Shown one piece after another: positions 11,538-31,163 of a stretch of 33,381 nt of DNA. Numbering within the stretch: the first letter of the stretch is position 1; the number at the start of each line of letters is the position of its first letter. Both the position numbers and the translations under genes were made by a program. This stretch comes from Bacillota bacterium (GTDB lineage: Bacteria; Bacillota; Clostridia; Oscillospirales; Oscillospiraceae). The notes under the pieces are model-generated. The model did no database searches, was not told the origin of the DNA, and saw only the letters and a program-made list of their open reading frames with translations. Where the stretch lies: NCBI GenBank assembly GCA_029268085.1, contig JAJUHD010000003.1:1-33381 (forward strand), in the 5' to 3' direction.

Positions 11538-11555
11538 ATATTTATGGGCAAACCG

Positions 11556-12806
11556 TTATTTTGCGACGATCTTTTTCAGCCTTGCGTAGCGAGGCAGCGA
11601 GTTTTCGACCTCTCTCTTGGGCTGGCCCTGAATAAGGGGCATAGCATAGTCGATGAATTCCTTTGTTACGTTGTTGCCCTCCTTGTTGATCCATTCGAGG
11701 GGGACCTTCTTTTCAAAGTTTGCGACGCTGTTCAGCGGCAAAAGCTTTGTCCTGCAGGTATATTTTCCGTTCACATACTTGCGCTCGAAGGCGACCATTT
11801 TACCGCTTTCACCTTTGACTGCCGCCTCAACCGCCTTTTTGCCCGCGAGAACGGCCTCGTCGACATCAACCTTGGAAGCAAGATGCGAGGCGCAGCGCTG
11901 GAGCAAGCTGAGCTCAATGCCGCGAACCTTTGCGCCGGTCCTTTTCTTCAGCTCGTCCGCAAGCTGGACGGCGAGACCGCCGAGCTGGGCGTGGCCGAAA
12001 GCGTCCTTTTGTTGAGCGGTAGTTGAGCCGTATTCAGAGATAAATCTGCCCTGCGCGTCATGGATGCCTTCCGAAACGGCGACAAGCACGTTGCCTTGCT
12101 TTTTGTAGATTGAAATGACGTCCTCGCAAAATTTCTCATAATTAAAATCGACCTCTGGCAGATAGACAAGGTCCGGGCCGGAGCCGCAGTAGCTCGCGAG
12201 CGCCGCGCTTCCGGCGAGCCATCCGGCGTGGCGTCCCATAATCTCGACAACTGTTATCATTCCCTTGTCATAGACTCTTGCGTCCTTAGAAACCTCCATG
12301 CAGGAGGTCGCGATATACTTTGCCGCGCTGCCGAAGCCGGGGCAGTGGTCGGTTCCGAAAAGGTCGTTGTCTACGGTCTTTGGGACGCCAATAACACGGC
12401 ATTCGTAGCCGACATTTTTCATGTAGCGGCTGATCTTCTCGCAGGTATCCATTGAGTCGTTGCCGCCGTTATAGAAAAAGTAGCGCACGTCGTATTTTTT
12501 GAAAATCTCAAGGATTCGTTTGTAATCTGTATCGTCCTTTTCGGGATCGGCGATCTTGTACCTGACCGAGCCCAGTTCCGAGGACGGAGTGTTTTTAAGA
12601 AGCTCAAGCTCATGAGGGTCTTCCTCATCCATAATATATAGCTTATCATCCAGAACGCCCTTGATACCGTGAGCTGCGCCATAAACCTTGGTAATGCAGT
12701 CGGTATCCAGAGCTGTGCGTATAACGCCGTATGCGCTTGCATTTATAACGGCTGTAGGTCCGCCGGACTGCCCTATTATACAAGCTCCTTTGAGTTCTTT
12801 TTCCAT
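11556..12806 (-). CDS. 6-phosphofructokinase, probably diphosphate-dependent type
   Basis: ATG at 12806 with AAGGAGGTCATC upstream; IGQSGGPTAVINA, GVPKTVDNDLFGTDHCPGFGSAAKYIA, GRHAGWLAG. Lys in PKTVDND favours PPi use. Confidence 0.88.
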   Translation of the reverse strand: MEKELKGACIIGQSGGPTAVINASAYGVIRTALDTDCITKVYGAAHGIKGVLDDKLYIMDEEDPHELELLKNTPSSELGSVRYKIADPEKDDTDYKRILEIFKKYDVRYFFYNGGNDSMDTCEKISRYMKNVGYECRVIGVPKTVDNDLFGTDHCPGFGSAAKYIATSCMEVSKDARVYDKGMITVVEIMGRHAGWLAGSAALASYCGSGPDLVYLPEVDFNYEKFCEDVISIYKKQGNVLVAVSEGIHDAQGRFISEYGSTTAQQKDAFGHAQLGGLAVQLADELKKRTGAKVRGIELSLLQRCASHLASKVDVDEAVLAGKKAVEAAVKGESGKMVAFERKYVNGKYTCRTKLLPLNSVANFEKKVPLEWINKEGNNVTKEFIDYAMPLIQGQPKREVENSLPRYARLKKIVAK

Positions 12807-12861
12807 GATGACCTCCTTGTTGACACTTAAAAATAATTTTGTACGAAATGTCTCTAACATG

Positions 12862-12949: not shown

Positions 12950-13885
12950 ATGCCAATCGTAACGTCAAAGGAAATGTTCAGGAAGGCCTATGAGGGCCAT
13001 TATGCGATAGGCGCATTTAACGTAAACAATATGGAGATCATCCAGGGGATCACCGAGGCGGCGGCGGAGGTCCGCTCTCCGCTCATTCTTCAGGTATCGG
13101 CCGGCGCCAGAAAATATGCTAAGCACGTTTACCTCATGAAACTTATCGAAGCGGCAATTGAGGATACAGACCTTCCTATCTGTGTTCATCTTGATCACGG
13201 TGACAGCTTCGAACTTTGCAAATCATGCATCGACGGCGGCTTTACATCGGTCATGATAGACGGGTCGCACCTGCCATTTGAGGAGAATATTGCACTGACA
13301 AAAAAAGTTGTCGAATATGCCCACGACAAGGGTGCGGTCGTTGAAGCCGAGCTTGGAAGGCTAGCGGGAGTCGAGGACGAAATCAACGTCAAGGCCGAGG
13401 ACAGTTCCTATACGCATCCCGACGAGGTGGAGGAGTTTGTCAACCGCACCGGCTGCGATTCGCTCGCGATTGCGATCGGTACGAGCCACGGTGCTTACAA
13501 GTTTAAGCCCGGTACAAAACCCCAGCTTCGCTTTGATATCCTTGCCGAAGTCGAAAAGAGACTGCCGCAGTTCCCGATAGTCCTGCACGGCGCTTCTTCC
13601 GTTATTCCGAAATATGTTGATATCATAAACGCCAACGGTGGACAGCTTAAGGACGCGATCGGCATTCCCGAGGAAATGCTCCGCGAGTCGGCAAGAATGG
13701 CTGTATGCAAGATCAACATCGACTCCGACCTGCGCCTTGCCATGACCGCCGGTATTCGCGAGACAATGGCAAAGAACCCCGACGCATTTGATCCCAGAAA
13801 GTATCTTGCCCCAGCGAGAGACTATATCCGTGAGCTTGTTAAGGATAAAATCGTTAACGTGCTGGGCAGCGACGGAAAAGCTTGA
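12950..13885 (+). CDS. Class II fructose-bisphosphate aldolase
   Basis: ATG at 12950 after AAAAGGAG; GAFNVNNMEIIQGI, CVHLDHGDSFE, AIGTSHGAYKF, VLHGASSV, KINIDSDLRLA. Confidence 0.95.
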   Translation: MPIVTSKEMFRKAYEGHYAIGAFNVNNMEIIQGITEAAAEVRSPLILQVSAGARKYAKHVYLMKLIEAAIEDTDLPICVHLDHGDSFELCKSCIDGGFTSVMIDGSHLPFEENIALTKKVVEYAHDKGAVVEAELGRLAGVEDEINVKAEDSSYTHPDEVEEFVNRTGCDSLAIAIGTSHGAYKFKPGTKPQLRFDILAEVEKRLPQFPIVLHGASSVIPKYVDIINANGGQLKDAIGIPEEMLRESARMAVCKINIDSDLRLAMTAGIRETMAKNPDAFDPRKYLAPARDYIRELVKDKIVNVLGSDGKA

Positions 13886-13933
13886 GAACATTTTTCCCCG
13901 GCAGATGCCTATATATAAATACGGTTCGGGAGG

Positions 13934-15844
13934 ATGGCAATGAAACCTGGTACTTTAGAGCGAATTTACCCCTCCTTGGGAGACGATTATAAGAACCCCG
14001 GAATTCTGCTGATATTTCGCTTGGCCATGTCCGCGGCGCTCCTCGGCGTCTTCAATTTCGTTGAGTTGTCAAAGAACATTGATCTCGTTCTGCTGAGCGC
14101 CGCAGCGCTTGTCAGCGGTTATGACGTTCTAATTAACGCTGTAAAGGATATCAGTCATCGGGTTCTGATGCGTGAAAACCTGCCTGTTTTGATCGCGGTT
14201 ATCCTGTCCTTTGCCATAGGCCGCGGAGCCGAGGGTGTCATAGCGCTTCTGCTGCTGCAGCTATCTTACATGGCCCGCGATTATGCTCTTTACAGGACGC
14301 GGAAGATGATCTGCGAGGCTATCGAACCGGACCGAAGGATACTTAAAGGAGCAGAAACAAACCCGAAAGGGGAGCCCCAGAAACTGGAATATCCAATAGG
14401 CAGCACTGTAATCGTTTACGAGGGAATGGCTGTTCCGCTGGACTGCGTCATAAAGGAAGGTTCGGGCTGCGCCGATATGAGCTTCATCACTGGAAGCCCC
14501 AAAAAAGTGAAGCTTGTCAAGGGTGATTACTTACCCGCCGGCAGCGTCTGTACGGAAGGGCAGTTCGTTGCCGAAGCCTCGCAGCTTCCAGAAAACGCGC
14601 TTTACAGGAAGATCGCTTCTGTGCTTAAATCAGACTACGGCGAGATGACAGAGATTGAGGAGCGCTTGATTAGAGCTACAGGTTTTTTTATACCGGCTGC
14701 GCTCGCAGCCAGCGTTGTTTTGCTGCTTGTTCTCCCGTTCGCTTATAAAATTGATTTCATGGAAACTATACGCCGTATAATCACGATAATCGCGGTCGCC
14801 TCACCCTGCGGAGTGCTCCTCTCGATACCTCTGACATGGTTTTCCGGAATGGCGGCGGGGCGAAGGAAGGGCATCCTGTTCACTCACGCAAAGGCGCTCG
14901 AAAACTCTGCCGTCATGAAGACGATTGTTTTCAACAAGGCAGGAACGCTAACAGATAGAAATTTCCTTGTGACCGAAATCAAAACCGACAGAATGGATCC
15001 CGCCACCTTCCTGAAAGTTGCGGCTTACGCCGCGGCGAACAGCAAGAACAGCTTGGCACGGGCAATAGTCAAAGCCTTCGGCGAGGAAATAGATACGAGG
15101 CTTGTAAAAGAGTTCGCCGAATATCCTGAAAAAGGCGTCTCCGTAACAGTAGACGGTATACAGATTATGCTTGGAATCGGCAGCTTTTTTTCCGAAAACG
15201 GCGTTGCGATACCGGAAAGAGCCGATGAGGGCACAAAAGTCCATATGGCCGTCAACGGCATATATGCAGGATGGATCTCACTTAGCGAGACTGTCAAACA
15301 AGACGTTTCCATCGGCTATTTCAACAGTCTGTCAAAGGCCGGTATCGACAGAGTAGCGATGATCTCAGGCGACAGCCGCGAAAAGGACAGGCTGGTTGCA
15401 AATGAACTCGGAATCGAAGAATACTATGCCGAATGTTCGAATGAGGAAAAACTCCGTCGCATAGCCGAAATCAAAGGACGTACCGAAAGAAGGAGCACCC
15501 TCGCATACGTTAGCGATTGCCTTAGCGGCGAGAAACTGTTCAAGGCTGCCGATGTAGGCATTTTAACGGACGGTATCACATGCCGTGACGAGCTGACGAA
15601 AACCGACATAGTTATTATGGAAAACGGCGTGGCACCGTTGCCTGATGTCATTCGGATATCACGCCGAACGAAAAGCTACATCATAAAAGGCGCTATATTC
15701 GGCTGCTGTGTAAAGGTTATTATTTTGGCTCTTGCGGTATTCGGATTTGCTCCGGTTTGGTTCGGGCTGCTAATCGATTTCTGTGCATCGCTTGCGGTTT
15801 TGCTCAACAGCACAGGAGTCTATTCACGCGATACAGTTGCCTGA
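13934..15844 (+). CDS. P1B-type ATPase homologue with degenerate catalytic motifs (putative pseudo-ATPase)
   Basis: 636 aa with the hydrophobic segments of a P1B core and C-terminal segment FAPVWFGLLIDFCASLAVLLNS. Catalytic motifs replaced: ITGSP, SPCG, NKAGTLTD, VSDCLSGE. Confidence 0.85.
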   Translation: MAMKPGTLERIYPSLGDDYKNPGILLIFRLAMSAALLGVFNFVELSKNIDLVLLSAAALVSGYDVLINAVKDISHRVLMRENLPVLIAVILSFAIGRGAEGVIALLLLQLSYMARDYALYRTRKMICEAIEPDRRILKGAETNPKGEPQKLEYPIGSTVIVYEGMAVPLDCVIKEGSGCADMSFITGSPKKVKLVKGDYLPAGSVCTEGQFVAEASQLPENALYRKIASVLKSDYGEMTEIEERLIRATGFFIPAALAASVVLLLVLPFAYKIDFMETIRRIITIIAVASPCGVLLSIPLTWFSGMAAGRRKGILFTHAKALENSAVMKTIVFNKAGTLTDRNFLVTEIKTDRMDPATFLKVAAYAAANSKNSLARAIVKAFGEEIDTRLVKEFAEYPEKGVSVTVDGIQIMLGIGSFFSENGVAIPERADEGTKVHMAVNGIYAGWISLSETVKQDVSIGYFNSLSKAGIDRVAMISGDSREKDRLVANELGIEEYYAECSNEEKLRRIAEIKGRTERRSTLAYVSDCLSGEKLFKAADVGILTDGITCRDELTKTDIVIMENGVAPLPDVIRISRRTKSYIIKGAIFGCCVKVIILALAVFGFAPVWFGLLIDFCASLAVLLNSTGVYSRDTVA

Positions 15845-15856
15845 TAGATTCAGCAG

Positions 15857-15888
15857 AAAGCGGGAAGCCTTAAGGCTTCCCGCTTTTT
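15857..15888 (+). terminator. Intrinsic terminator after the P-type ATPase homologue
   Basis: Perfect 13-bp stem AAAGCGGGAAGCC-TTAA-GGCTTCCCGCTTT followed by TT. Confidence 0.92.
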
Positions 15889-15889
15889 A

Positions 15890-17359
15890 TTATTCATTTT
15901 GAACCGTTTTCGAAACAGCTGCCATGCAATCTCCGGAGTCGGAATAGACGCCCGAAACTATCTGCTCCCAGTATTTTAGAAAAATATCTGCAAGCTCGGG
16001 ACAAAACAGGGATCCGCTTCCTTTCGATATCTCCGACCTGCACACATCTGGCGGGAGTGCCTGTCTATAGACACGCTCGATCATCATGGAATCGACCGCG
16101 TCGCATACGGCAATGATCTGAGAACCCTTCGGTATTTCTTCGCCTTTGAGTCCATCGGGATAACCGCTGCCGTCCCAATGCTCATGGTGGTGGCGGACTA
16201 TTTCGGCTACACGCTCCAATTTGCTGCCGGATTTAAGTATAATGTCTGCACCGATATCAGGATGACGGCGCATTTCAGACCACTCGCTGTCGCTTAGCTT
16301 ATCACATTTGTTGAGCGTAGCATCCGGCACGCCGACCTTTCCCAGATCGTGCAGCGATGCGGAAAGCTCAAGCAGTTCCGATTCCAACAGAGGTATATGA
16401 AGATATTTACAGAACCGTTTTGTCAGTACTGCCACGCGCCTGGAATGACCTGCGGTATATTCATCTCTCGCTTCAAGAACATCGATGACGGTTTCAAACG
16501 TACTCTTATATAAAGCTATGGGAAGGCTGGATAAGATGTCTTGAGGTTGATCGACAGGGAGCTGGCGCATCGCGTTCCTGCCAAGCCCGTTTCTGAAACG
16601 GAACCGGAGCTTTGCAATGCTGTCCTTATATCTGCCCTGCCTCAAACGGGGGTAGGCTTTTAGAATTCTCGACTGAACGGCACTGAGACCGAACCTGACC
16701 CTTGCGGAGCCGCATTCGATAGCTTCCTTGCCGGCTTCAAACTTTTCCACAGCGCTAATAGTGCCGCTTGCCAGAGCGCCTCCGATGCTGTCGGATACCT
16801 TTCGTATACCCTTTTCCGTATTGTCAAGAAAAACAAGCTTCATTCTGAGCTTCAGGGTCTCAATAAGGGTGACTGCCGTGTCGGCAAGAATAAGGAATGC
16901 AAAGACACCGAGCAGAACGTGGCCCAGAGTCAGCGGTATTAGCCAGATGAGTTTTGACGTAATAGGGTAGATAACGTCGACAATAAGTATGCAGGCAAGC
17001 CCCCATGCAAGAGAAAACCTGATGCAAATATATCCGCAGATATTAAGGGGTTCTTCCGAATAATCCCACCATTTGTCATCGAAGAATCTCTCAAGAATAA
17101 AGCCTGTTAAAAATTCGAGCAAGGAAGTCAGGATAACAGAGCCAAGAAACAGAAACGGCAAGCTATCTTTGACAGGGTCAAGACAAAGCGCTACGATTAG
17201 AACTCCGAAGCCGTAGATGGGGCAGACGGGGCCGTTCAAAAAGCCTCGGTTCAGAAATTTACCTTCCGAGACCGCATGGAAGATTACTTCTACGCACCAG
17301 CCCAGAAACGCGTATATGAAAAAAACCCAAACGGTCTGGTAAATATCGAACGGCAGCAT
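15890..17359 (-). CDS. Membrane protein with N-terminal PF06541-like (putative ABC transporter type IV/CmpB) region fused to a C-terminal HD-GYP domain
   Basis: N-term FFIYAFLGWCVEVIFHAVSEGKFLNRGFLNGPVCPIYGFG; C-term GHSRRVA, ASLHDLGKVGVPD, RHHHEHWDGSGYPDGLKGEEIP. Start has a GGAGG SD. Confidence 0.85.
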   Translation of the reverse strand: MLPFDIYQTVWVFFIYAFLGWCVEVIFHAVSEGKFLNRGFLNGPVCPIYGFGVLIVALCLDPVKDSLPFLFLGSVILTSLLEFLTGFILERFFDDKWWDYSEEPLNICGYICIRFSLAWGLACILIVDVIYPITSKLIWLIPLTLGHVLLGVFAFLILADTAVTLIETLKLRMKLVFLDNTEKGIRKVSDSIGGALASGTISAVEKFEAGKEAIECGSARVRFGLSAVQSRILKAYPRLRQGRYKDSIAKLRFRFRNGLGRNAMRQLPVDQPQDILSSLPIALYKSTFETVIDVLEARDEYTAGHSRRVAVLTKRFCKYLHIPLLESELLELSASLHDLGKVGVPDATLNKCDKLSDSEWSEMRRHPDIGADIILKSGSKLERVAEIVRHHHEHWDGSGYPDGLKGEEIPKGSQIIAVCDAVDSMMIERVYRQALPPDVCRSEISKGSGSLFCPELADIFLKYWEQIVSGVYSDSGDCMAAVSKTVQNE

Positions 17360-19520: not shown

Positions 19521-21425
19521 ATGTACAGAGCTTTTTTCAAAAGATTATTGGATATTGTTTTGTCCATTTGCGGTACAATTGCGCTTTTGCCGGTGTTTCT
19601 GATTATAATGGCTGCGATCATTATCGATGATCCGGGGCCTGTGTTTTTTGTTCAAAAAAGGATCGGTATCCATAAAACCTGTTTTAATATTATAAAATTC
19701 CGAACCATGAAGATAAGTACGCCAAAGAATATTCCCACGCACCTGCTGGAGGATCCTGAAAGGTACATAACCGGATTTGGCAAGTATCTGCGCAGAAGCA
19801 GCTTGGACGAGTTGCCGCAAATTATGCAGATACTGACGGGGAAAATGAGCATAATAGGGCCTCGCCCCGCTCTTTGGAACCAGTATGATCTGATTGAAGA
19901 GAGAGACAAATATGGCGCCAACGATATAATGCCGGGGCTGACCGGCTGGGCACAGGTCAATGGAAGGGACGAAATTTCCATTGTTGATAAAGCGCGCTTG
20001 GATGGCGAATATGCAAAAAATATTAGCTTTTTATTGGATGTCAAGTGCTTCTGGCTTACGATCGTTAAGGTCCTTAGGCGTGAAAATGTTGTGGAGGGGA
20101 AGACAAAGGCTGAGTTGTCAGCAATCGAGGCAAGCAACCGACACATGAACATCTGGATATTCAATAATTATAATATGCTGCCAGAGCATGGCGCATTGAA
20201 CAGAAGCTATTACCTTGGCAGATATCTTAAAAAAATGGATCACAAACCGGTTGTATTCGCAGGCAGCCATCCGCATAATACCGACTTGCAGCTCATCGAA
20301 GGAAGAGAAAAATTCAAAGAAATCCATGACAGCGAATTTCCCTGGGTGCTTGTAAGAACCTGCAACTATGAAGGAAGCAGGCTTAAAAGAATATACTCAA
20401 TGTTTGAATACTATTTTAATCTAAGAAAAGCGGTGGGTTATTATGAGAAACCCGATGTAATAATCGGATCTTCCGCTCACCCTCTGGCAGCGATTGCAGC
20501 AATTAAACTATCTAAAAAATATGGGTGTAAAGGCATCGTCGAAATTCGAGACCTTTGGCCTGAAAGCTTTGCTGCATATAGAATAATCAGCAGGAAAAAT
20601 CCCTTGCTGAATCTGCTGTATGGCGGTGAGAAATGGATATACAAAAAAGCCGATGCGCTGATTTTTACAATGGAGGGCGGCAAAGATTACATAATCAGCA
20701 AAGGCTGGGACAAAGCACACGGCGGACCAGTTGAGCTGAGTAAAGTATTTCATATTAATAACGGTGTGGATCTGGAGGAATTCGAAGCCAGCCGGTCAAG
20801 GGACGACTATCAGGATACGGACTTAAACAATGCCGATATTTTTAAAGTTGTTTACACCGGCTCTATTCGCTTGGCTAATCAGGTGCAGGAGCTGGTCAAT
20901 GTTGCAAAAATATTGAGAAACAGACATGCGGATAACGTGAAAATCCTTATTTGGGGCACGGGAGACCAGTTCGGGAAAATAGACCGTTTAATAAAGGAGG
21001 AAGCACTAATAAATATTGTGCTTAAAGGTCCCGTTCCGAAAGCCTTGATTCCGCAAATCTTATCAAAAAGTGATCTTAATATCTACTTGCTGGCCAAAAC
21101 GCCGCTTCTTGATTATGGCCTTAGCCTAAATAAATCTTTCGAGTACTTCGCTTCGGGAAAGCCGGTAATAGCCAGTTCCAATTCCGGATATTCAATAATT
21201 GACAAGTATAAATGCGGCAGGTGTCTTGATAGCTTTACCCCAGAGGCAATGGCGGATGAGATAATACGTTTTTCCAATATGCCTAAGGAAGAATATCGCG
21301 CTTACTGCGAAAACTCAATGCGCGCCGCGCATGATTATGATTATAAAACGCTTGCTGAAAAGCTGCTTGAGGTAATTGAAAAACAGCGGCGCCCTTCAAA
21401 GCAATGCCTTACTGAAAAGGGGTAA
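19521..21425 (+). CDS. Fusion: monotopic phosphoglycosyl transferase (bacterial sugar transferase) + GT4-like glycosyltransferase
   Basis: N-term FFKRLLDIVLSICG...KFRTMK...RRSSLDELPQ...IIGPRPAL...PGLTGWAQVNGRD; C-term MNIWIFNNYNMLPEHGALNRSYYLGR...VYTGSI...LNKSFEYFASGKPVIAS. Confidence 0.88.
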   Translation: MYRAFFKRLLDIVLSICGTIALLPVFLIIMAAIIIDDPGPVFFVQKRIGIHKTCFNIIKFRTMKISTPKNIPTHLLEDPERYITGFGKYLRRSSLDELPQIMQILTGKMSIIGPRPALWNQYDLIEERDKYGANDIMPGLTGWAQVNGRDEISIVDKARLDGEYAKNISFLLDVKCFWLTIVKVLRRENVVEGKTKAELSAIEASNRHMNIWIFNNYNMLPEHGALNRSYYLGRYLKKMDHKPVVFAGSHPHNTDLQLIEGREKFKEIHDSEFPWVLVRTCNYEGSRLKRIYSMFEYYFNLRKAVGYYEKPDVIIGSSAHPLAAIAAIKLSKKYGCKGIVEIRDLWPESFAAYRIISRKNPLLNLLYGGEKWIYKKADALIFTMEGGKDYIISKGWDKAHGGPVELSKVFHINNGVDLEEFEASRSRDDYQDTDLNNADIFKVVYTGSIRLANQVQELVNVAKILRNRHADNVKILIWGTGDQFGKIDRLIKEEALINIVLKGPVPKALIPQILSKSDLNIYLLAKTPLLDYGLSLNKSFEYFASGKPVIASSNSGYSIIDKYKCGRCLDSFTPEAMADEIIRFSNMPKEEYRAYCENSMRAAHDYDYKTLAEKLLEVIEKQRRPSKQCLTEKG

Positions 21426-21429
21426 TGCT

Positions 21430-22596
21430 ATGGCTTTATTGCTTATAAAAATCGCACATATGTTCCAAAGAAAGAAAAACCCTTTGTTTTCCGCAGATAT
21501 AGGGGTTCAGCAGAAATATATGAGAAAGCTGGGCATACCGGGAGACAATATTGAGCGCGGGTATTTTCAATACCGATGCCAGATGCGGCTTTTGGGCTGT
21601 ATTTTAGCTTTTTTATATAACCTGACATCGATTCCTTTGATGTTTCTATATAAAAAAAGAATAGCGCGCGCGCAGGCCCCGAACTCCGATGATGTCTTCG
21701 ACGGTATCTTTATATTTGCAGGAGCCGATACGATACTTCCATTGAGCCTGAAGGAAAAATACAGCATCAAGCAGGTAAAGGACTGTCAGAGCCAGCAGCT
21801 TCTAATAAAAGAAGATATCCTGTTCCTGAACACTTTGCGGAAACGATATCCATTCGCGTGGCATTTCCGCTTTAAGTGCCTTATGAAAATTGCTATGTAC
21901 CGCTATCAGATCATGGCATATCGGCCCACAGCTTTAATCGTCAGCTCTGAATACTCTTTCACATCCTCTGTTTTAACTGCGTACTGCGAGGGCATGGGGA
22001 TTAAGCATATAAATGTGATGCATGGCGAGAAGCTTTTCTATATGCGTGATTCGTTTTTTCATTTTCATGAATGCTATGTGTGGGATGAGCATTACAGAAA
22101 ATTGTTTACAGATTTACAGGCAGAGCCGACGCAGTTCATAATCGACGTTCCGCCCTCTTTAGCGAAGCGGGAAAATTCCAATGTTCCTAAAACCGTTGAT
22201 TATACATACTATTTAGGTACAGAAAAAATCAGGGAAATGAAGCAAATAAAACGCTCGCTTGATTTGCTGGTTAAATCAGGAGGTATGGTTGCTATCCGGC
22301 CGCATCCGCTTTACTCATCCGCCCGTGATATCCAAAGTGTTTTTGGCGTCGATTCCAATTACATTATTGAGGATAAAAGCATTTTGCCCATAGAAATCTC
22401 CCTGCTGAGGACCCGATACGCAGTTTCCTGTTATTCTACAGTGCTGTTCCAAGCCATAAACAATGGCGTTACTGCCGTGATAGACGATACGGATAAGGAA
22501 AAATACAAAAAGCTGAAGAGCTTGCGATATATTTGCTTGGAGAAGGAGCACATGATTTTATCGGATCTGATAAATAAAACTATGAATAAGGAATAA
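21430..22596 (+). CDS. Putative GT-B-like glycosyltransferase/capsule biosynthesis protein, family unassigned
   Basis: ATG at 21430; LIVSSEYSF, INVMHGEKLF, GMVAIRPHPLYSS and late SCYSTVLFQAINNGVTAV, reminiscent of polysialyl-/sialyltransferase-type GT-B folds. Confidence 0.5.
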   Translation: MALLLIKIAHMFQRKKNPLFSADIGVQQKYMRKLGIPGDNIERGYFQYRCQMRLLGCILAFLYNLTSIPLMFLYKKRIARAQAPNSDDVFDGIFIFAGADTILPLSLKEKYSIKQVKDCQSQQLLIKEDILFLNTLRKRYPFAWHFRFKCLMKIAMYRYQIMAYRPTALIVSSEYSFTSSVLTAYCEGMGIKHINVMHGEKLFYMRDSFFHFHECYVWDEHYRKLFTDLQAEPTQFIIDVPPSLAKRENSNVPKTVDYTYYLGTEKIREMKQIKRSLDLLVKSGGMVAIRPHPLYSSARDIQSVFGVDSNYIIEDKSILPIEISLLRTRYAVSCYSTVLFQAINNGVTAVIDDTDKEKYKKLKSLRYICLEKEHMILSDLINKTMNKE

Positions 22597-22612
22597 GAAT
22601 AGAAGGTAAATT

Positions 22613-24379
22613 ATGGGTTTTGTAATTTCAAACAGGAAATTTGAAGGCGCTGAGGAATTTGAAAAGCTGTATTTTGACGGTTCGGACGTTATAACGTCAA
22701 ATGCAAGTTTGATCGCGGTTAAAACAAACGTTTTTGGTAAAAAACGCCGCGAGATAATTGATAATGTATTGGAACAAACGTCAAGCGACTCAACAATTGG
22801 CATTCTAAGCAAAGACGAGTTCTATGTTGCGCTTAGCTATAAAATCAATTCTGATATATTGAAAATACAAACTGATATTGTGGCGTATGAATCGGCGTTT
22901 ATTTATCGCTCCGGCGATTGCTTCGTTATTTCGGACAATGTGCTGAGAATAATTGAAATTCTTCAGTCTTTTGGCATTACTGTGGCGTTACTGGAAGACA
23001 AAGTCAGGAAGTTTGTTTATCTTGGAAATTACTTTACGTCTGAAACATTTTTTTCAGATATCTCAATATTACAGCCGGCAACAAATTATTTTTTAAATAT
23101 ATATAATTTGGAACTGCAATCTTCAGCTTATGATGATTTTTCCTTTTCGGGTAAAATCACCGATGCGGATGAAGCGGCGTCGCGTCTTTATTCTGTGCTC
23201 GATGAGTTATTTAAATCGAATTACTCAAAGGACATGAAATACGGCATAGGGATCAGCGGCGGGCTTGACTCGAGGGTCGCGGGCTATTTTGCAAAAAAGA
23301 ACGGATATAACGTTTATCCGTATTTCCTTGGCAGAAAACGAAACTCTTTGGGTTTCCTTACCAACGATGCCAAGCGAAGCCTTGAGGTCATTCATGAAAT
23401 CGGACTGAACGAACCAAGTTTTTATCCGACGGACATAGTACCTTATTCCAAAAAGCTCGAATATGATGCTGTGAAAGCTCCAACCGGCTCTCCGAACGTG
23501 ACACAAAACATCGGGTTTGATTGGCCGTATTTTGATGTGATGATACATGGAATGCTGGGCGGAGAGCTTTTTGGCGGAATCGGTTTTCTCAATAAAAATA
23601 ATATGGATTGTACATCCGAGGAGCTTTCGGCAAGTATTATCGCTACTTTGAATTGCTTGCCGAAATATAAAGCCAAGTATTCGCTTTCAGGAAAAATTAT
23701 AACAAAGCTTCCAAAAATTAGAGATAAGTATAGATTTACTGATTATGAAAAGGAGCGCATTATTTCTGAGCGCCTTCGGACAGAGCTTAAATCGGAATTA
23801 TGCGAATGGATAGAGCGGCAAAATGCAAACGGACTTTCCAATATAAATATCGCGATGAAATTCTTTTATTACTATTATTCAAGAAATGTTAGAACTGCAT
23901 ATTACGCAACTTTGGAGGACAGCATTTACTCGTTTGGAGCGTTCTTGAACCCGAAGGTAATATCGGAATTCCGCAATTGGAGCGATGGGCTGTTTTTAAA
24001 CAGAGTTGTCCAAAAGGCTTTAATTAAAAAATGCGGGAATTTATGCAGCGTTAGGGACCAAACGACTGCCGCTTCAATTTCAGAAAGCGAGTCAGGCCGA
24101 TCAATCAGAAAATATGCTTATATGCTTGAACGTGCCTTGCGAGGCAGCGGAATGTACTATACAAATTATGACAAAAAGGAATTTGCTTCTCAGCTTCAAG
24201 AATTAAATCAGCAAAAAATAATCAGAATGTTCGACTGCGATTTTGTTGAATTGTCTGAGGCAAAAGCAGATGTCTGCCACTTGATTATGAAGCTTGCATG
24301 GCTGGAAAAACGCTATAATCTGCCGGTAGCGGATGGTGATTATGAGGATTCTAATTTTATCTCCATATATCAGCGATAA
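22613..24379 (+). CDS. Asparagine synthase-related protein lacking the catalytic glutaminase Cys
   Basis: 588 aa; PPi-loop GIGISGGLDSRVAGY; N-terminus MGFVISNRKF has no Cys2. Confidence 0.75.
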   Translation: MGFVISNRKFEGAEEFEKLYFDGSDVITSNASLIAVKTNVFGKKRREIIDNVLEQTSSDSTIGILSKDEFYVALSYKINSDILKIQTDIVAYESAFIYRSGDCFVISDNVLRIIEILQSFGITVALLEDKVRKFVYLGNYFTSETFFSDISILQPATNYFLNIYNLELQSSAYDDFSFSGKITDADEAASRLYSVLDELFKSNYSKDMKYGIGISGGLDSRVAGYFAKKNGYNVYPYFLGRKRNSLGFLTNDAKRSLEVIHEIGLNEPSFYPTDIVPYSKKLEYDAVKAPTGSPNVTQNIGFDWPYFDVMIHGMLGGELFGGIGFLNKNNMDCTSEELSASIIATLNCLPKYKAKYSLSGKIITKLPKIRDKYRFTDYEKERIISERLRTELKSELCEWIERQNANGLSNINIAMKFFYYYYSRNVRTAYYATLEDSIYSFGAFLNPKVISEFRNWSDGLFLNRVVQKALIKKCGNLCSVRDQTTAASISESESGRSIRKYAYMLERALRGSGMYYTNYDKKEFASQLQELNQQKIIRMFDCDFVELSEAKADVCHLIMKLAWLEKRYNLPVADGDYEDSNFISIYQR

Positions 24380-25592: not shown

Positions 25593-26996
25593 ATGAACGG
25601 AAGGCTTACCTCGACGCATCTTAAAGGCCGTACCAATAGAAGTGTAGTCAGGATACGCTGCGACATGGTGATCGCTTTGGCTTCAACGTTTTTCGTGGGA
25701 CTGTCTGCTGTCACTAACAACGCGGTTTTCTGCTATATTGCGATGCTCTTTTTGCCTTTTGGACTTATTTATCCGACGTCGCTTATACCGGTACTTATGG
25801 TTACGTCTCTTTCGAGTAACTTTTTCGCTGCGGCAGAAGGGATTGGGGCTGCACGCCTGTTCGCTATTGCCATAGTACTCGGCGTTACAATATCTATGAT
25901 TCGAAATCGCAGAAAGATCAATCTTTTTTGGCTGCGTTTTCTTATATTAATCATGATAGCGACTTTGCTTACCACGGCAATAAACGGAGCTGTCAATATG
26001 CAAGCCTTGTCAACGATCGGCCTGAACCTATTGATCGCTTTTGCGTTTTCAAATATTAAGATCGACTCAAAAGAATTCGAAAGAATTCTTTTTTGCGTTT
26101 TTGCGGCGTTTTCTATAATTACTATACTAATTTTTATAAATTTGAGTTTTTCGGGGCTTCAAACCCTTTTTCAGGGTCGTATATCCATCGATTCCGATGT
26201 CAATACAAACCGTCAGGCAATGATGTGCGCGCAGCTTGGCGCATTTATGTTTGGCTATGCTGTTTACTCTCCAAAAACGAAGTATAAAGTGTTCTGCATT
26301 ATATTGGGACTCATTAACTTTTTTGTATGCCTGATTTCCGGCTCAAGAACCGGTTGTTTAGCGGTAATACTGGGCGTGATGGTATCCGTTATTGTTTTTA
26401 ATCGTATTAACAAAAAAAGCCTTAAGGGAATTGCGACAGTGGCATCAATCACGGTAATCGGTTTTTTGATTTTTCAGCTTGTTGTCGGCAAAAACGCAAT
26501 CCTTGCGGAGAGATATTCACTGCAGGGCATTTTGAAAAATGGCGGTACTTACCGATGGGAAAGAATAATCTGCGAAGTAAAATATATAATCCCGGAACAC
26601 CTGCTGTTCGGTATAGGACCTTCTTCAATATATGAAACACTGGCGCTGCGGCCGTATTTAGCTAAGCCCGGCTCGTCGCACAATATCATTTTCAGTATGC
26701 TGACGCAGATCGGCATATTGGGAAGCGCCGCATATGTTGCGGTTGTCAGTTCTGCTATCAGGAGGATTATTGCCGCGCTGAGAAGATTTCCCGCTGCTTT
26801 AATTCCGCTTTCCATGATTCTGACCGGCCTGTTTAACGGCATAGGAGAAGTGATGTATTGCGAACGTTTATTCTGGATGGTGCTTTCTTTTTCGATTCTT
26901 TGCATAAACAGCCGACCGTTTGAGGCGGACAGTGCAGACCGGTCAGAGAAATCCGCTTCAGAACATAGGAGGTATCTATGCCAGAGGTATCGATAA
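25593..26996 (+). CDS. O-antigen ligase / Wzy-like polysaccharide polymerase
   Basis: Polytopic; SGSRTGCLAVILGVMVSV and large loop with GIGPSSIYETLALRPYLAKPGSSHNIIFSMLTQIGILG. ATG at 25593 preferred to TTG at 25581. Confidence 0.82.
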   Translation: MNGRLTSTHLKGRTNRSVVRIRCDMVIALASTFFVGLSAVTNNAVFCYIAMLFLPFGLIYPTSLIPVLMVTSLSSNFFAAAEGIGAARLFAIAIVLGVTISMIRNRRKINLFWLRFLILIMIATLLTTAINGAVNMQALSTIGLNLLIAFAFSNIKIDSKEFERILFCVFAAFSIITILIFINLSFSGLQTLFQGRISIDSDVNTNRQAMMCAQLGAFMFGYAVYSPKTKYKVFCIILGLINFFVCLISGSRTGCLAVILGVMVSVIVFNRINKKSLKGIATVASITVIGFLIFQLVVGKNAILAERYSLQGILKNGGTYRWERIICEVKYIIPEHLLFGIGPSSIYETLALRPYLAKPGSSHNIIFSMLTQIGILGSAAYVAVVSSAIRRIIAALRRFPAALIPLSMILTGLFNGIGEVMYCERLFWMVLSFSILCINSRPFEADSADRSEKSASEHRRYLCQRYR

Positions 26997-29089
26997 TTAT
27001 ACCAGTATATAATGTTGAACTATATCTGCGGCATTGTCTGGACTCGGTACTCGCCCAGACATTCCGGGATATTGAAGCGATACTGGTGGATGACGGCTCC
27101 ACGGACGACAGCGGGAAAATATGCGATGAGTACGCTGAAAAAGACGCGCGGTTCAGAGTGGTTCATCAGGAAAACGCAGGGCTTTCTGGAGCACGAAATA
27201 CGGGCATTGAAAAAGCCCGCGGAAGCTATCTCTATTTTTTAGATTCTGATGACTGGGTTGAAAGGGATACTGTTGAAAAACTGTATGAAGGGGTAGCCGG
27301 AAGCGGCGGCCAGTATGCCGTTTGCGGCTACTATAAAGAAGCAAAGCCCAGAGGATACTTTTCTCCGCAAATGAGGCCGGAAGCCGATAACCGCTTGGGT
27401 AATTTACTTCGCTATGCAAGAAAAGAATTCTCTTACGCGGTGTGGAACAAACTGTACAGGCGCAGTATTGTTATTGAGAACAACCTTCGGTTCTATGAAG
27501 GAGAAAAGTATGTAGAAGACCATGCGTTTAATCTTAAATACCTTCTCTTCTGCGAAAAAGTCTCGGTAATACGGGCCCCGCTGTATCATTACAGAATAAG
27601 AGAGGGGCAGATAACAGCGGAAAGCCCCGAAAAGAGACTTCCGACTTACATAGAGGACACAAAAAAACTAATTGAAGATTTCAAGTCATACGGGAAATAC
27701 GAGGAGTACAAAGAGGTGTTGGCGGTTCATTTTGCTGCACGCTTTAACGAATACATAGGCGGGCTTGCGAAGGATAAATTTCTCTGCAAACCAAAATCAT
27801 TGCTTATAAAAGAAATAAAAAACCTATACAGAGAAACAGGCTTTTCAAAAGTATTAAAGCATGCGCCGCTAATAAAAAAGGAAAGGTTATTTCTGGCATT
27901 GCTGGGGCAGGGAAATGCAGGGGCAATAATCGGATGCTACCGCCTGTACGCTTTACTGCGAAGAGTGATGAGCCTATGGGGCAAAACAAAATATTGCCTG
28001 CGCGAGAAAATCAAAGATTTGGTTCTCTACAGGTCGATTTGGTTAAAGAGAAATTACCTCCGATATATCCAAAAGGATAATGATACCAATTTTTTGTCTG
28101 ATCAAAGCCTCAAAATCGGTACAAAGCCGCGTTTGTTTTTAATAGGTACGCCTGAATATGAAAATGTTGGTGATCACGCAATAGCCGTTGCCGAAAAACA
28201 GTATTTGGGCAAAGAGCTTGCTGATTACTCTCTGATTGAGGTTACCGAAAACGAGGCCGTCTTACATTTGCGAGAATTGAAAAAATATATTCAATCCACA
28301 GACATAATTCTGCTTCAGGGCGGAGGAAATATGGGGAGCGAATACCCCGATCAGGAAATGATAAGAAAACATGTAATCAAAGCGTTTCCGGATAACAAAA
28401 CAGTTGTATTTCCGCAGTCTGTGTTTTTTTCCGATAAACCGATAAATCATTTTAGAAAGAAAGAAATGCGCAGTTATTACTCCGGTCATATTAATTTGCT
28501 TCTTTGCGCGAGAGAAAGACGCTCGTATGAAATAATGCTGGAAAACTTTGAGGAATGCAAAATTGCGCTTATGCCGGATATGGCGTTTCGCTTGCAAAGC
28601 GCTGCTAAAGCATCTAAACGCAACGGCGTCCTGATATGCCTTCGGTCTGATAAAGAGAGCATCTTGTCATGGGATGATAAGGCTAAGATAAACTGCATTT
28701 GCAGGCAGAGGTTTAATAATGTTTCAGAGTCTGACACATGCATAGATTATCGGGTCAAAAAGGAAAACAGAGAAAAAATACTGGATCAGATTGTCATGCG
28801 GTTTAGGTCGTCCGAGCTGGTGGTAACGGACAGATTGCACGGCATGATTCTTGCGGCCGTTACGGAAACGCCCTGTGTGGCTTTCAGCAATTCAAACCAT
28901 AAAATTGTAGAGAGCTTTGAATGGATCAAAGGCCTTGGATTCGTAAGGCTTTGCGATAATTTGGAGAGACTCGGAGATTTAATAAGCGCAGCACTCTCGT
29001 GTGCTGCCGAATATGACCGTACGGCATTTGACGAGTATTATGACGCAATTACGCTGTTTATACGGGAGAATTCAAATGGACAGAATTAA
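26978..29089 (+). CDS. Fusion: GT2 glycosyltransferase + polysaccharide pyruvyl transferase family domain (PF04230-like)
   Basis: N-term VSIIIPVYNVELYLRHCLDSVLAQT, LVDDGSTDDSG, YFLDSDDWV; C-term LQGGGNMGSEYPD, VVFPQSVFF, CARERRSYEI, VVTDRLHGMILAA. Confidence 0.88.
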   Translation: MPEVSIIIPVYNVELYLRHCLDSVLAQTFRDIEAILVDDGSTDDSGKICDEYAEKDARFRVVHQENAGLSGARNTGIEKARGSYLYFLDSDDWVERDTVEKLYEGVAGSGGQYAVCGYYKEAKPRGYFSPQMRPEADNRLGNLLRYARKEFSYAVWNKLYRRSIVIENNLRFYEGEKYVEDHAFNLKYLLFCEKVSVIRAPLYHYRIREGQITAESPEKRLPTYIEDTKKLIEDFKSYGKYEEYKEVLAVHFAARFNEYIGGLAKDKFLCKPKSLLIKEIKNLYRETGFSKVLKHAPLIKKERLFLALLGQGNAGAIIGCYRLYALLRRVMSLWGKTKYCLREKIKDLVLYRSIWLKRNYLRYIQKDNDTNFLSDQSLKIGTKPRLFLIGTPEYENVGDHAIAVAEKQYLGKELADYSLIEVTENEAVLHLRELKKYIQSTDIILLQGGGNMGSEYPDQEMIRKHVIKAFPDNKTVVFPQSVFFSDKPINHFRKKEMRSYYSGHINLLLCARERRSYEIMLENFEECKIALMPDMAFRLQSAAKASKRNGVLICLRSDKESILSWDDKAKINCICRQRFNNVSESDTCIDYRVKKENREKILDQIVMRFRSSELVVTDRLHGMILAAVTETPCVAFSNSNHKIVESFEWIKGLGFVRLCDNLERLGDLISAALSCAAEYDRTAFDEYYDAITLFIRENSNGQN

Positions 29090-31163
29090 GAGGTTTTTTG
29101 ATGTCTATGTGCCGGTAAAGAGCTGCAACCTTAAATGCCATTATTGCTATGTAACGGAGGATGCCAAGTCAAAAATGGGGGACACCGCATTTGAATATAC
29201 ACCTGAGCAAATCGGGCGGGCTCTAGCCATAGAACGGTTGGGAGGCAAATGCCTGTTCCATATTTGCGGATACGGAGAAACCCTGATTCCTCCCGAAATA
29301 GCGGAAATAATTAAAGAAATACTGAAACAGGGACATTATGTTTTTGTTGTAACGAACGGACTTATATCAAAGAGGATAGATCAGATACTTGAGTTTCCGC
29401 AGGAATATCTGACGCGGCTTGGTTTTAAGTTCTCTTTCCACTACCTGGAGCTGCTGAGGACCAATCAGCTCGAAAAATTTACATACAACGTTAGCAGAGT
29501 CAGAACTGCGGGATGTTCGATATCTGTCGAGGTAACGCCAAGTGACGAGCTTGAACCCTATATCGACGAAATGAGACGGTACAGCATCGAAAAATTCGGG
29601 GCGCTGCCCCATATTACTGTTCCGCGTAACGGTGATGATCCGTCGTGGCCGCTGCTTTCAAAGCGCTCGCTTCAGGAATTTAAGGATATTTGGGGCCAAT
29701 TTGAATCGGAGCTATTTGATTTCAAGCTGTCCACATGGGGAATAAAGCGGAAGGAATATTGTTATGCCGGCGCATGGTCGGGTCTTCTCAATATAGGCAA
29801 CGGCGAACTGTCGCGCTGTTACGGAGGGAAGTATTCCCAGAATATCCTGAAGGACCCGACCAAGCCGATAATAGACCTGCCGATAGGAAATAAATGTTCA
29901 ATGCCTCATTGTGTCAACTCCCATATATTTCTGACTCTGGGTGATATTCAGAGTATTAATTCATACACATACGCTCAGGTCAGGAACAGAGTATGCGCAG
30001 ACGGAAGCGAATGGCTTCGGGAGCCGATGAAATCATTTATCAGCGGCAGGTTGGAAGATGCAAACGAAATACTGACGGAAAAAAAGAAGAAGCTGCTTGC
30101 ATGGAAAAGCTTCCTGCTGGTTTTGAGGTATCAGCTTTTTAAGAGACTTTATACCCTGTTAAGCAGAAAAATAAGGCTGATACTGGAAAAAAATAAACTG
30201 ATTCCCGCCCCGCGATACTGCTGTTCATTTGGGAGTGTAATCATGCGCCATATTTTCAAAAAGGCAAAGAAAGCGCCAAGGTACGCGAAAGCAAGGATCG
30301 AAAGATGCTACTATACGCTAAGGTACCGGTTTGCAAAAGGCAGTATCTATATAAAAACCGAAAGTATAGAAACAACTATTCAGAAGATCATTGACGAAAA
30401 GGTTTCGGTTTCACGCTTCGGAGACGGAGAATTCAAATGGATCGAAAAACTGCGGCACAACTCCTTTCAGGATGTTGACGAAAAGCTGTCCGAAAGGCTG
30501 CTGGAGGTTCTGAGAAGCGAAAGCGAGCGCCACATAGTATGCATAAGCCCGGCTTTCAGCGGACTTGAGTATGAAACAGAAGAGAGCAAAAAGTACTGGA
30601 GGGCTGTGCTTGGGCAATATGGAAAGCGTTGGGCGAGGCACCTCGATAGGAGCAGAGTTTACTTCAACGCAAATATCAGCCGCTTTTATTTGAATGATAT
30701 CAACAAAGCCTTGGTCAACAGCAGATTTTTACAATTGAAAAAAATATGGGATGGCAGAGATTTGCTTATAGTGGAGGGCGAAATGAGCCGGATGGGAGCA
30801 GGGAACGACCTGTTCGAGAATGCCAGAAGCATTCAGCGGCTTATCGCCCCCAAGCGCAACGCGTTCAGCAGATATGACGCAATTCTTGAAAAAGCAAAGC
30901 GCTACGGGAAAGAGAAGCTGATTCTCATTGCTCTGGGCCCGACCGCCACGGTTCTGGCCTATGATCTGGCAATGTCAGGTTATCAAGCGATCGACTTAGG
31001 CCATGTTGATATCGAATATGAGTGGTATCTGATGGGGGCGACAAAAAAAGTTCCTGTTCGTTGGAGAGAAGTCAATGAAGCAAGGACTGCCAATGAAATA
31101 CCTTTTACCGGCCCTGAACGCGTAAAATATGATTCTCAAATTATAGATGCAGTGCTGCTGTAG
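29076..31163 (+). CDS. Fusion: radical SAM protein with C-terminal Cys-rich region + GT-D-type glycosyltransferase (PF08759/DUF1792-like)
   Basis: ATG at 29076; CNLKCHYC (29124-29147), ICGYGETLIPPEI, later cysteines YCYAGAW...SRCYGG...CSMPHC; C-term VSVSRFGDGEFKWI...RVYFNANISRFYL...LIVEGEMSRMGAGNDLFENARSIQRLIAP. Confidence 0.82.
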   Translation: MDRIKRFFDVYVPVKSCNLKCHYCYVTEDAKSKMGDTAFEYTPEQIGRALAIERLGGKCLFHICGYGETLIPPEIAEIIKEILKQGHYVFVVTNGLISKRIDQILEFPQEYLTRLGFKFSFHYLELLRTNQLEKFTYNVSRVRTAGCSISVEVTPSDELEPYIDEMRRYSIEKFGALPHITVPRNGDDPSWPLLSKRSLQEFKDIWGQFESELFDFKLSTWGIKRKEYCYAGAWSGLLNIGNGELSRCYGGKYSQNILKDPTKPIIDLPIGNKCSMPHCVNSHIFLTLGDIQSINSYTYAQVRNRVCADGSEWLREPMKSFISGRLEDANEILTEKKKKLLAWKSFLLVLRYQLFKRLYTLLSRKIRLILEKNKLIPAPRYCCSFGSVIMRHIFKKAKKAPRYAKARIERCYYTLRYRFAKGSIYIKTESIETTIQKIIDEKVSVSRFGDGEFKWIEKLRHNSFQDVDEKLSERLLEVLRSESERHIVCISPAFSGLEYETEESKKYWRAVLGQYGKRWARHLDRSRVYFNANISRFYLNDINKALVNSRFLQLKKIWDGRDLLIVEGEMSRMGAGNDLFENARSIQRLIAPKRNAFSRYDAILEKAKRYGKEKLILIALGPTATVLAYDLAMSGYQAIDLGHVDIEYEWYLMGATKKVPVRWREVNEARTANEIPFTGPERVKYDSQIIDAVLL

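Follow-up and report, generated by a model that had tools for sequence, protein, structure and literature searches.

A putative pseudo-P1B-type ATPase encoded downstream of a class II aldolase gene in one genus of the Oscillospiraceae

P-type ATPases are named for an aspartate residue that becomes phosphorylated. The stretch of DNA analysed here (the window; 33,381 nucleotides, contig JAJUHD010000003.1 of a Bacillota bacterium of the family Oscillospiraceae) includes a gene of this superfamily in which that residue is replaced, which raises the question of what such a protein is and what it could do. The gene is located at nucleotides 13940 to 15844 (+ strand) and consists of a single unbroken frame coding, most probably, for 634 amino acids, as supported by translation, Pfam and NCBIfam matches and ten full-length orthologues, that of the window included. 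A preliminary description of the window had proposed an ORF of 636 amino acids; its frame is indeed uninterrupted, but the ATG at 13934 is a less likely start than the second ATG, at 13940. The latter is probably the start codon because the Shine-Dalgarno sequence GGGAGG (13928-13933, + strand), which most orthologues share in the form (T)TCGGGAGG, abuts the first ATG, and because a spacer of 5-7 nt separates TTCGGGAGG from the counterpart of the ATG at 13940 in the majority of orthologues. A terminator-like hairpin of 15 pairs with a T tail (15855-15888, + strand) is found downstream, so that both signals reported previously are in place.

Matches along the protein to the Pfam families E1-E2_ATPase (1e-25) and Hydrolase (8e-13) and to the NCBIfam model TIGR01525 (295 bits, 1.1e-87) identify it as a P1B homologue. 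The features that define the P1B-type sequence and fold family are present, namely an A domain, a HAD-type P domain with an inserted N domain, and the P1B membrane layout. The AlphaFold model (pLDDT 81.7, pTM 0.77) retains the full P1B fold, and in a structural comparison of the kind that had been suggested, ZntA (4umw) had the best E-value and 7r0g the best TM-score (0.78). Since the 16-sequence input alignment, partly from viral contigs, contains active pumps and pulls the prediction toward the pump fold, the model indicates compatibility with this fold and is not proof of it. The sequence establishes descent from a Zn/Cd-type (P1B-2) pump, and the ORF is, on the same grounds, a full-length P1B-2 (ZntA/CadA-like) ATPase homologue without nearly the whole catalytic apparatus. 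Its score against TIGR01494 (97 bits, cut-off 62) means that automatic annotation would label it a pump.

Loss and retention were counted at positions with a conservation of 95% or more among 63 active relatives and checked in the ten full-length orthologues. Translation confirmed every motif replacement of the preliminary description, with its coordinates. HAD motif I, DKTGT, is NKAGT (14933-14947, + strand); Thr336 is lost in all ten orthologues and the Asp in eight, where N, A or E takes its place, with G in one fragment. The variants found at the same locus are NKAGT, NKPGT, NKVGT, AKSGT, GKSGT and EKKGT. Two deep-branching orthologues keep the Asp (DKAGT, DKVGT) and have lost TGES, CPC and GDGIND. 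The A-domain TGES is TGSP (14489-14500, + strand), the catalytic Glu being lost in nine of the ten, and the CPC of M4 is SPC (14801-14809, + strand), its first cysteine (Cys290) missing from all orthologues and its second (Cys292) from five. HAD motif IV, GDGINDxPxL, reads VSDCLSGEKL (15509-15538, + strand) by translation and orthologue alignment, and most of GDGIND is gone across the clade. The N-domain HP is replaced by NSKNSLARAIV in the window protein, and only one orthologue in ten has its histidine (H372). The P1B-2 signatures Nx7K and DxGx7N are incomplete (N586 0/10, G617 0/10, N625 5/10), the equivalents of M187 and E214 are also lost, and the Cys/His-rich N-terminus of several intact relatives is absent. 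Measured against the 63 active relatives, structural glycines stay while catalytic residues go. The protein thus lacks what a functional P-type ATPase requires (the DKTGT Asp, TGE and the GDGxNDxP loop) as well as P1B and P1B-2 hallmarks (the M4 CPC, the HP motif and complete Nx7K and DxGx7N). From these losses we infer that phosphoenzyme formation and metal pumping have been lost, although loss of activity was not measured.

Of the 12 genomes of the genus, 11 have an orthologue, which is full-length in ten (window included; 37-65% identity to the window protein) and split across two contig ends in one. The remaining genome, which is 78% complete, has neither the orthologue nor the neighbouring aldolase gene fba, and the locus may therefore simply be missing from that assembly. 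Because orthologues at the same locus carry degenerate motifs, chance and sequencing error are excluded, in agreement with the earlier argument against a single sequencing error; assembly contamination is ruled out by the 11 genomes that share the locus. In the tree the degenerate genes are monophyletic (UFBoot 96-100), with a stem branch about 1.0 substitution per site long, and are nested among arsR-linked intact pumps, so that homologues with shared substitutions form the conserved clade that the preliminary description had made a condition of its proposal. The order of the motif losses can be read from tip states only. Surveys of the order (394 genomes), the class (341) and the phylum (349), whose samples overlap in part and amount to about 1,000 genomes, gave no member of the clade outside the genus: the next matches in the order were ordinary ZntA-like pumps (about 428 bits versus more than 1,000), and the class and phylum surveys gave nothing else past 1e-140. 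A wider distribution was rejected on the basis of these searches. A scan of viral contigs with the pseudo-ATPase profile gave no match.

None of the ten full-length orthologues has an internal stop. Codon models gave omega values of 0.128 (ten sequences), 0.130 (four) and 0.14 (seven), and about 0.03 for the active pumps. Fixing omega at 1 was rejected at a cost of 384 and 666 log-likelihood units (lnL -7558 versus -7942, and -12406 versus -13072). The values are approximate because dS is saturated between species; neutrality is still excluded, and the proposed dN/dS check, with omega far from 1, speaks against a decaying pseudogene. The loss of catalytic residues under purifying selection across orthologues meets the definition of a pseudoenzyme, the absence of activity being inferred.

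At each of the 11 orthologous loci for which upstream sequence is available, the pseudo-ATPase gene lies directly 3' of fba, which codes for a class II fructose-bisphosphate aldolase (12950..13885, + strand). The stop codon of fba is 54 nt before the pseudo-ATPase start, and in the congeners the gap is about 26-62 nt, with a conserved Shine-Dalgarno sequence and no arsR. A conserved neighbour, pfp (PPi-dependent phosphofructokinase, 11556..12860, - strand), is divergent from fba. Co-transcription of fba and the pseudo-ATPase gene, in a unit that would end at the hairpin described above, is probable, although there are no expression data. Intact P1B-2 pumps, which by sequence belong with the closest intact lineages, occupy the same locus downstream of pfp and fba in two further genera of the family (represented by G064 and G552). 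Unlike the pseudo-ATPase, they have the canonical motifs and an arsR/SmtB-family repressor gene between fba and the pump, and in G064 a consensus promoter-like site (12/12) is also found there. The simplest history compatible with these sequences would have an arsR-pump unit shed both regulator and promoter and pass under the control of fba, with pump function being lost as well. The gene family can be considered a natural series, from the intact pump at the same locus through Asp-retaining to Asp-less orthologues, of how a pump becomes a non-pump.

Constraint on each domain was expressed as mean pairwise amino-acid identity, comparing degenerate with active genes of the same genus. Identity is lower in the degenerate genes for the A domain (0.41 versus 0.57) and P2 (0.44 versus 0.64), as it is for the membrane regions considered below. 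The sole region more conserved in the degenerate clade than in active pumps is the N domain (14969..15298, + strand; 0.528 versus 0.455, or 1.19 versus 0.78 in relative terms), which includes the clade-specific signature D-x-M-D-x-x-T-F-x-K-x-A-A (residues 352-366; 14987..15031, + strand). About 50 clade-specific near-invariant residues were identified, including C171, C206, C501, D352, D355, K361 and D485. Per-domain omega fits were too saturated to rank domains, and the statement about the N domain relies on amino-acid identity only. The gain in conservation, confined to this domain, suggests that a new role is centred there.

We consider the protein to be, with a probability of roughly 0.5, a neofunctionalised pseudo-P1B-ATPase that would act as a membrane regulator or scaffold, centred on its N domain and linked to glycolysis by the position of its gene behind fba; this role is inferred from sequence and gene order alone. 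The monophyly of the clade, an omega of about 0.13 and the active paralogues in the same genome support the selected non-catalytic homologue of the preliminary description. In this view the protein does not pump; it would be anchored in the membrane and regulate or act as a scaffold through its cytosolic head, chiefly through the N domain. Of the roles put forward earlier, metal sensing is weakened by the disappearance of the CPC cysteines, of the Cys/His-rich N-terminus and of the arsR metal repressor; channel activity, or a role as scaffold or regulator, can only be considered possible. Motifs II (S478, T in active pumps; 15365..15367, + strand; Ser in 10/10) and III (K506; 15449..15451, + strand; Lys or Arg in 9/10) are kept, as is D480 near motif II (10/10). 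Since the nucleophile of motif I and the Mg2+ loop of motif IV are lost, a non-hydrolysing phosphate pocket could remain. By a weaker inference, this pocket of the P domain may accommodate a phosphorylated ligand, either a nucleotide or a glycolytic metabolite, without turnover, and the N domain may pass the ligand state on to a partner or serve as its docking site, the upstream-encoded aldolase being one candidate. The specific version, a glycolysis-linked membrane sensor in which a phosphorylated metabolite occupies the dead HAD pocket and the aldolase is signalled to, or tethered, by the N domain, is doubtful as it stands; the link to the aldolase is inferred from gene order only, with no biochemical or expression data. 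A passive conduit, a ZntA partner and residual transport of the ERMA kind rank below a regulator or scaffold, and decay is excluded in practice.

The explanation that competes best, although we regard it as unlikely, is a passive or gated conduit in which the membrane half conducts an ion (Zn2+, another divalent cation or H+) through a path of E, K and D residues without ATP coupling. Like the P1B-2 ATPases ZntA and CadA (4umv/4umw), the pseudo-ATPase has the full-length domain order, the fold, the M2 Glu, and the M5 Lys and M6 Asp expected of P1B-2 proteins; unlike them, it lacks CPC, TGE, HP and GDGIND, the Cys/His-rich N-terminus and an arsR partner, and the catalytic Asp is missing from most members of its clade. 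The retained residues are E81 (ZntA E184, entry funnel; 14174..14176), E100 (E202, exit pathway; 14231..14233), each kept in 9/10, K594 (K693; 15713..15715) and D615 (D714; 15776..15778), all on the + strand. The last two, which the preliminary description had noted as retained in the C-terminal TM segments, are invariant in all ten full-length orthologues. In ZntA these four residues are assigned to the zinc pathway and the built-in counterion. Charged conserved membrane sites are retained above other conserved membrane sites (6/10 versus 7/49, Fisher p 0.005). Class II aldolases are classically zinc enzymes, and the upstream gene encodes one, which would suit a conduit for this metal. The equivalents of K693 and E202 are also essential in HMA4 (PMC6305203). 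Against conduction, the CPC cysteines, M187, E214 and the N and G of Nx7K and DxGx7N are lost, the membrane regions lost most conservation (M3-M4 from 0.730 to 0.427, M5-M6 from 0.61 to 0.40), and the K-D pair could be purely structural.

The protein could instead be a regulatory partner, in a hetero-oligomer, of an active ZntA-type pump of the same genomes. The search for an active P1B paralogue in the genome of the window found a ZntA-type gene with DKTGT accompanied by arsR and an HMA protein (G000:C66), as well as a CopA-type gene (G000:C186), and intact DKTGT paralogues also occur in most congeners. We nonetheless give this partnership little weight: the pseudo-ATPase gene is linked to fba and not to an active pump or its arsR, two congeners (G003 and G007) have only CopA-like and no ZntA-type paralogues among the matches listed, and we know of no solved P1B-2 pump described as an obligate oligomer.

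An equally improbable reading is that of a working ATP-driven transporter with non-canonical chemistry. The nearest analogue is human TMEM94/ERMA, which has DKQGIL and GSSANL, lacks TGES, and for which transport has been claimed (PMC13322241). Both proteins combine a P-type fold with the absence of TGES and with changes in DKTGT and GDGxND; TMEM94/ERMA is eukaryotic, has 10 TM segments and keeps the Asp, whereas the pseudo-ATPase belongs to a bacterial P1B lineage in which the Asp is lost in most species. This precedent, the Asp of two orthologues and the persistence of motifs II and III favour residual transport, but the replacement D427N abolishes ERMA transport (PMC13322241), N, A or E stands at this position in eight of ten orthologues (and G in a fragment), HP and GDGIND are lost too, and the activity of ERMA is itself disputed (PMC12134183). 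No description of a bacterial pseudo-P-type ATPase, without the Asp yet conserved as a lineage, was found in the open-access literature searched, subscription papers being outside the scope of the search. Finally, a slowly decaying pseudogene or a relaxed gene kept by chance, for which the long stem branch and an identity below that of neighbouring genes could be cited, is ruled out for practical purposes by the omega values and the rejection of omega = 1, the absence of in-frame stops, the conserved Shine-Dalgarno sequence and the new invariant residues.

Other features were observed in and around the locus. A gene convergent with the pseudo-ATPase gene (15890-17359, - strand) encodes a CmpB-like ABC-transporter membrane domain (PF06541) fused to an HD-GYP-type domain (PF13487), and in several congeners it adjoins a YegS-type lipid kinase gene; an operon with the pseudo-ATPase gene was rejected as it is on the opposite strand and is not adjacent in G004. 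A 160-amino acid frame antisense to pfp (11544-12026, + strand), open in many relatives, is probably a shadow of pfp codon constraint and not a gene. Two ArsR-family repressors (L050, 8341-8709, and L051, 10262-10576) have SEFRVSD and GELRVSD where ELCVCD or EMCVCD is found elsewhere, and judging from these motifs the cysteine metal site may have been lost in both, beside two intact relatives. A polysaccharide cluster includes two large ORFs (21376-24379, + strand; 406 and 588 amino acids) with no Pfam match at 1e-8 and a radical SAM domain joined to a GT-D glycosyltransferase domain (29001-31163, + strand). At 26978-29089, a GT2 domain is joined to a polysaccharide pyruvyl transferase.
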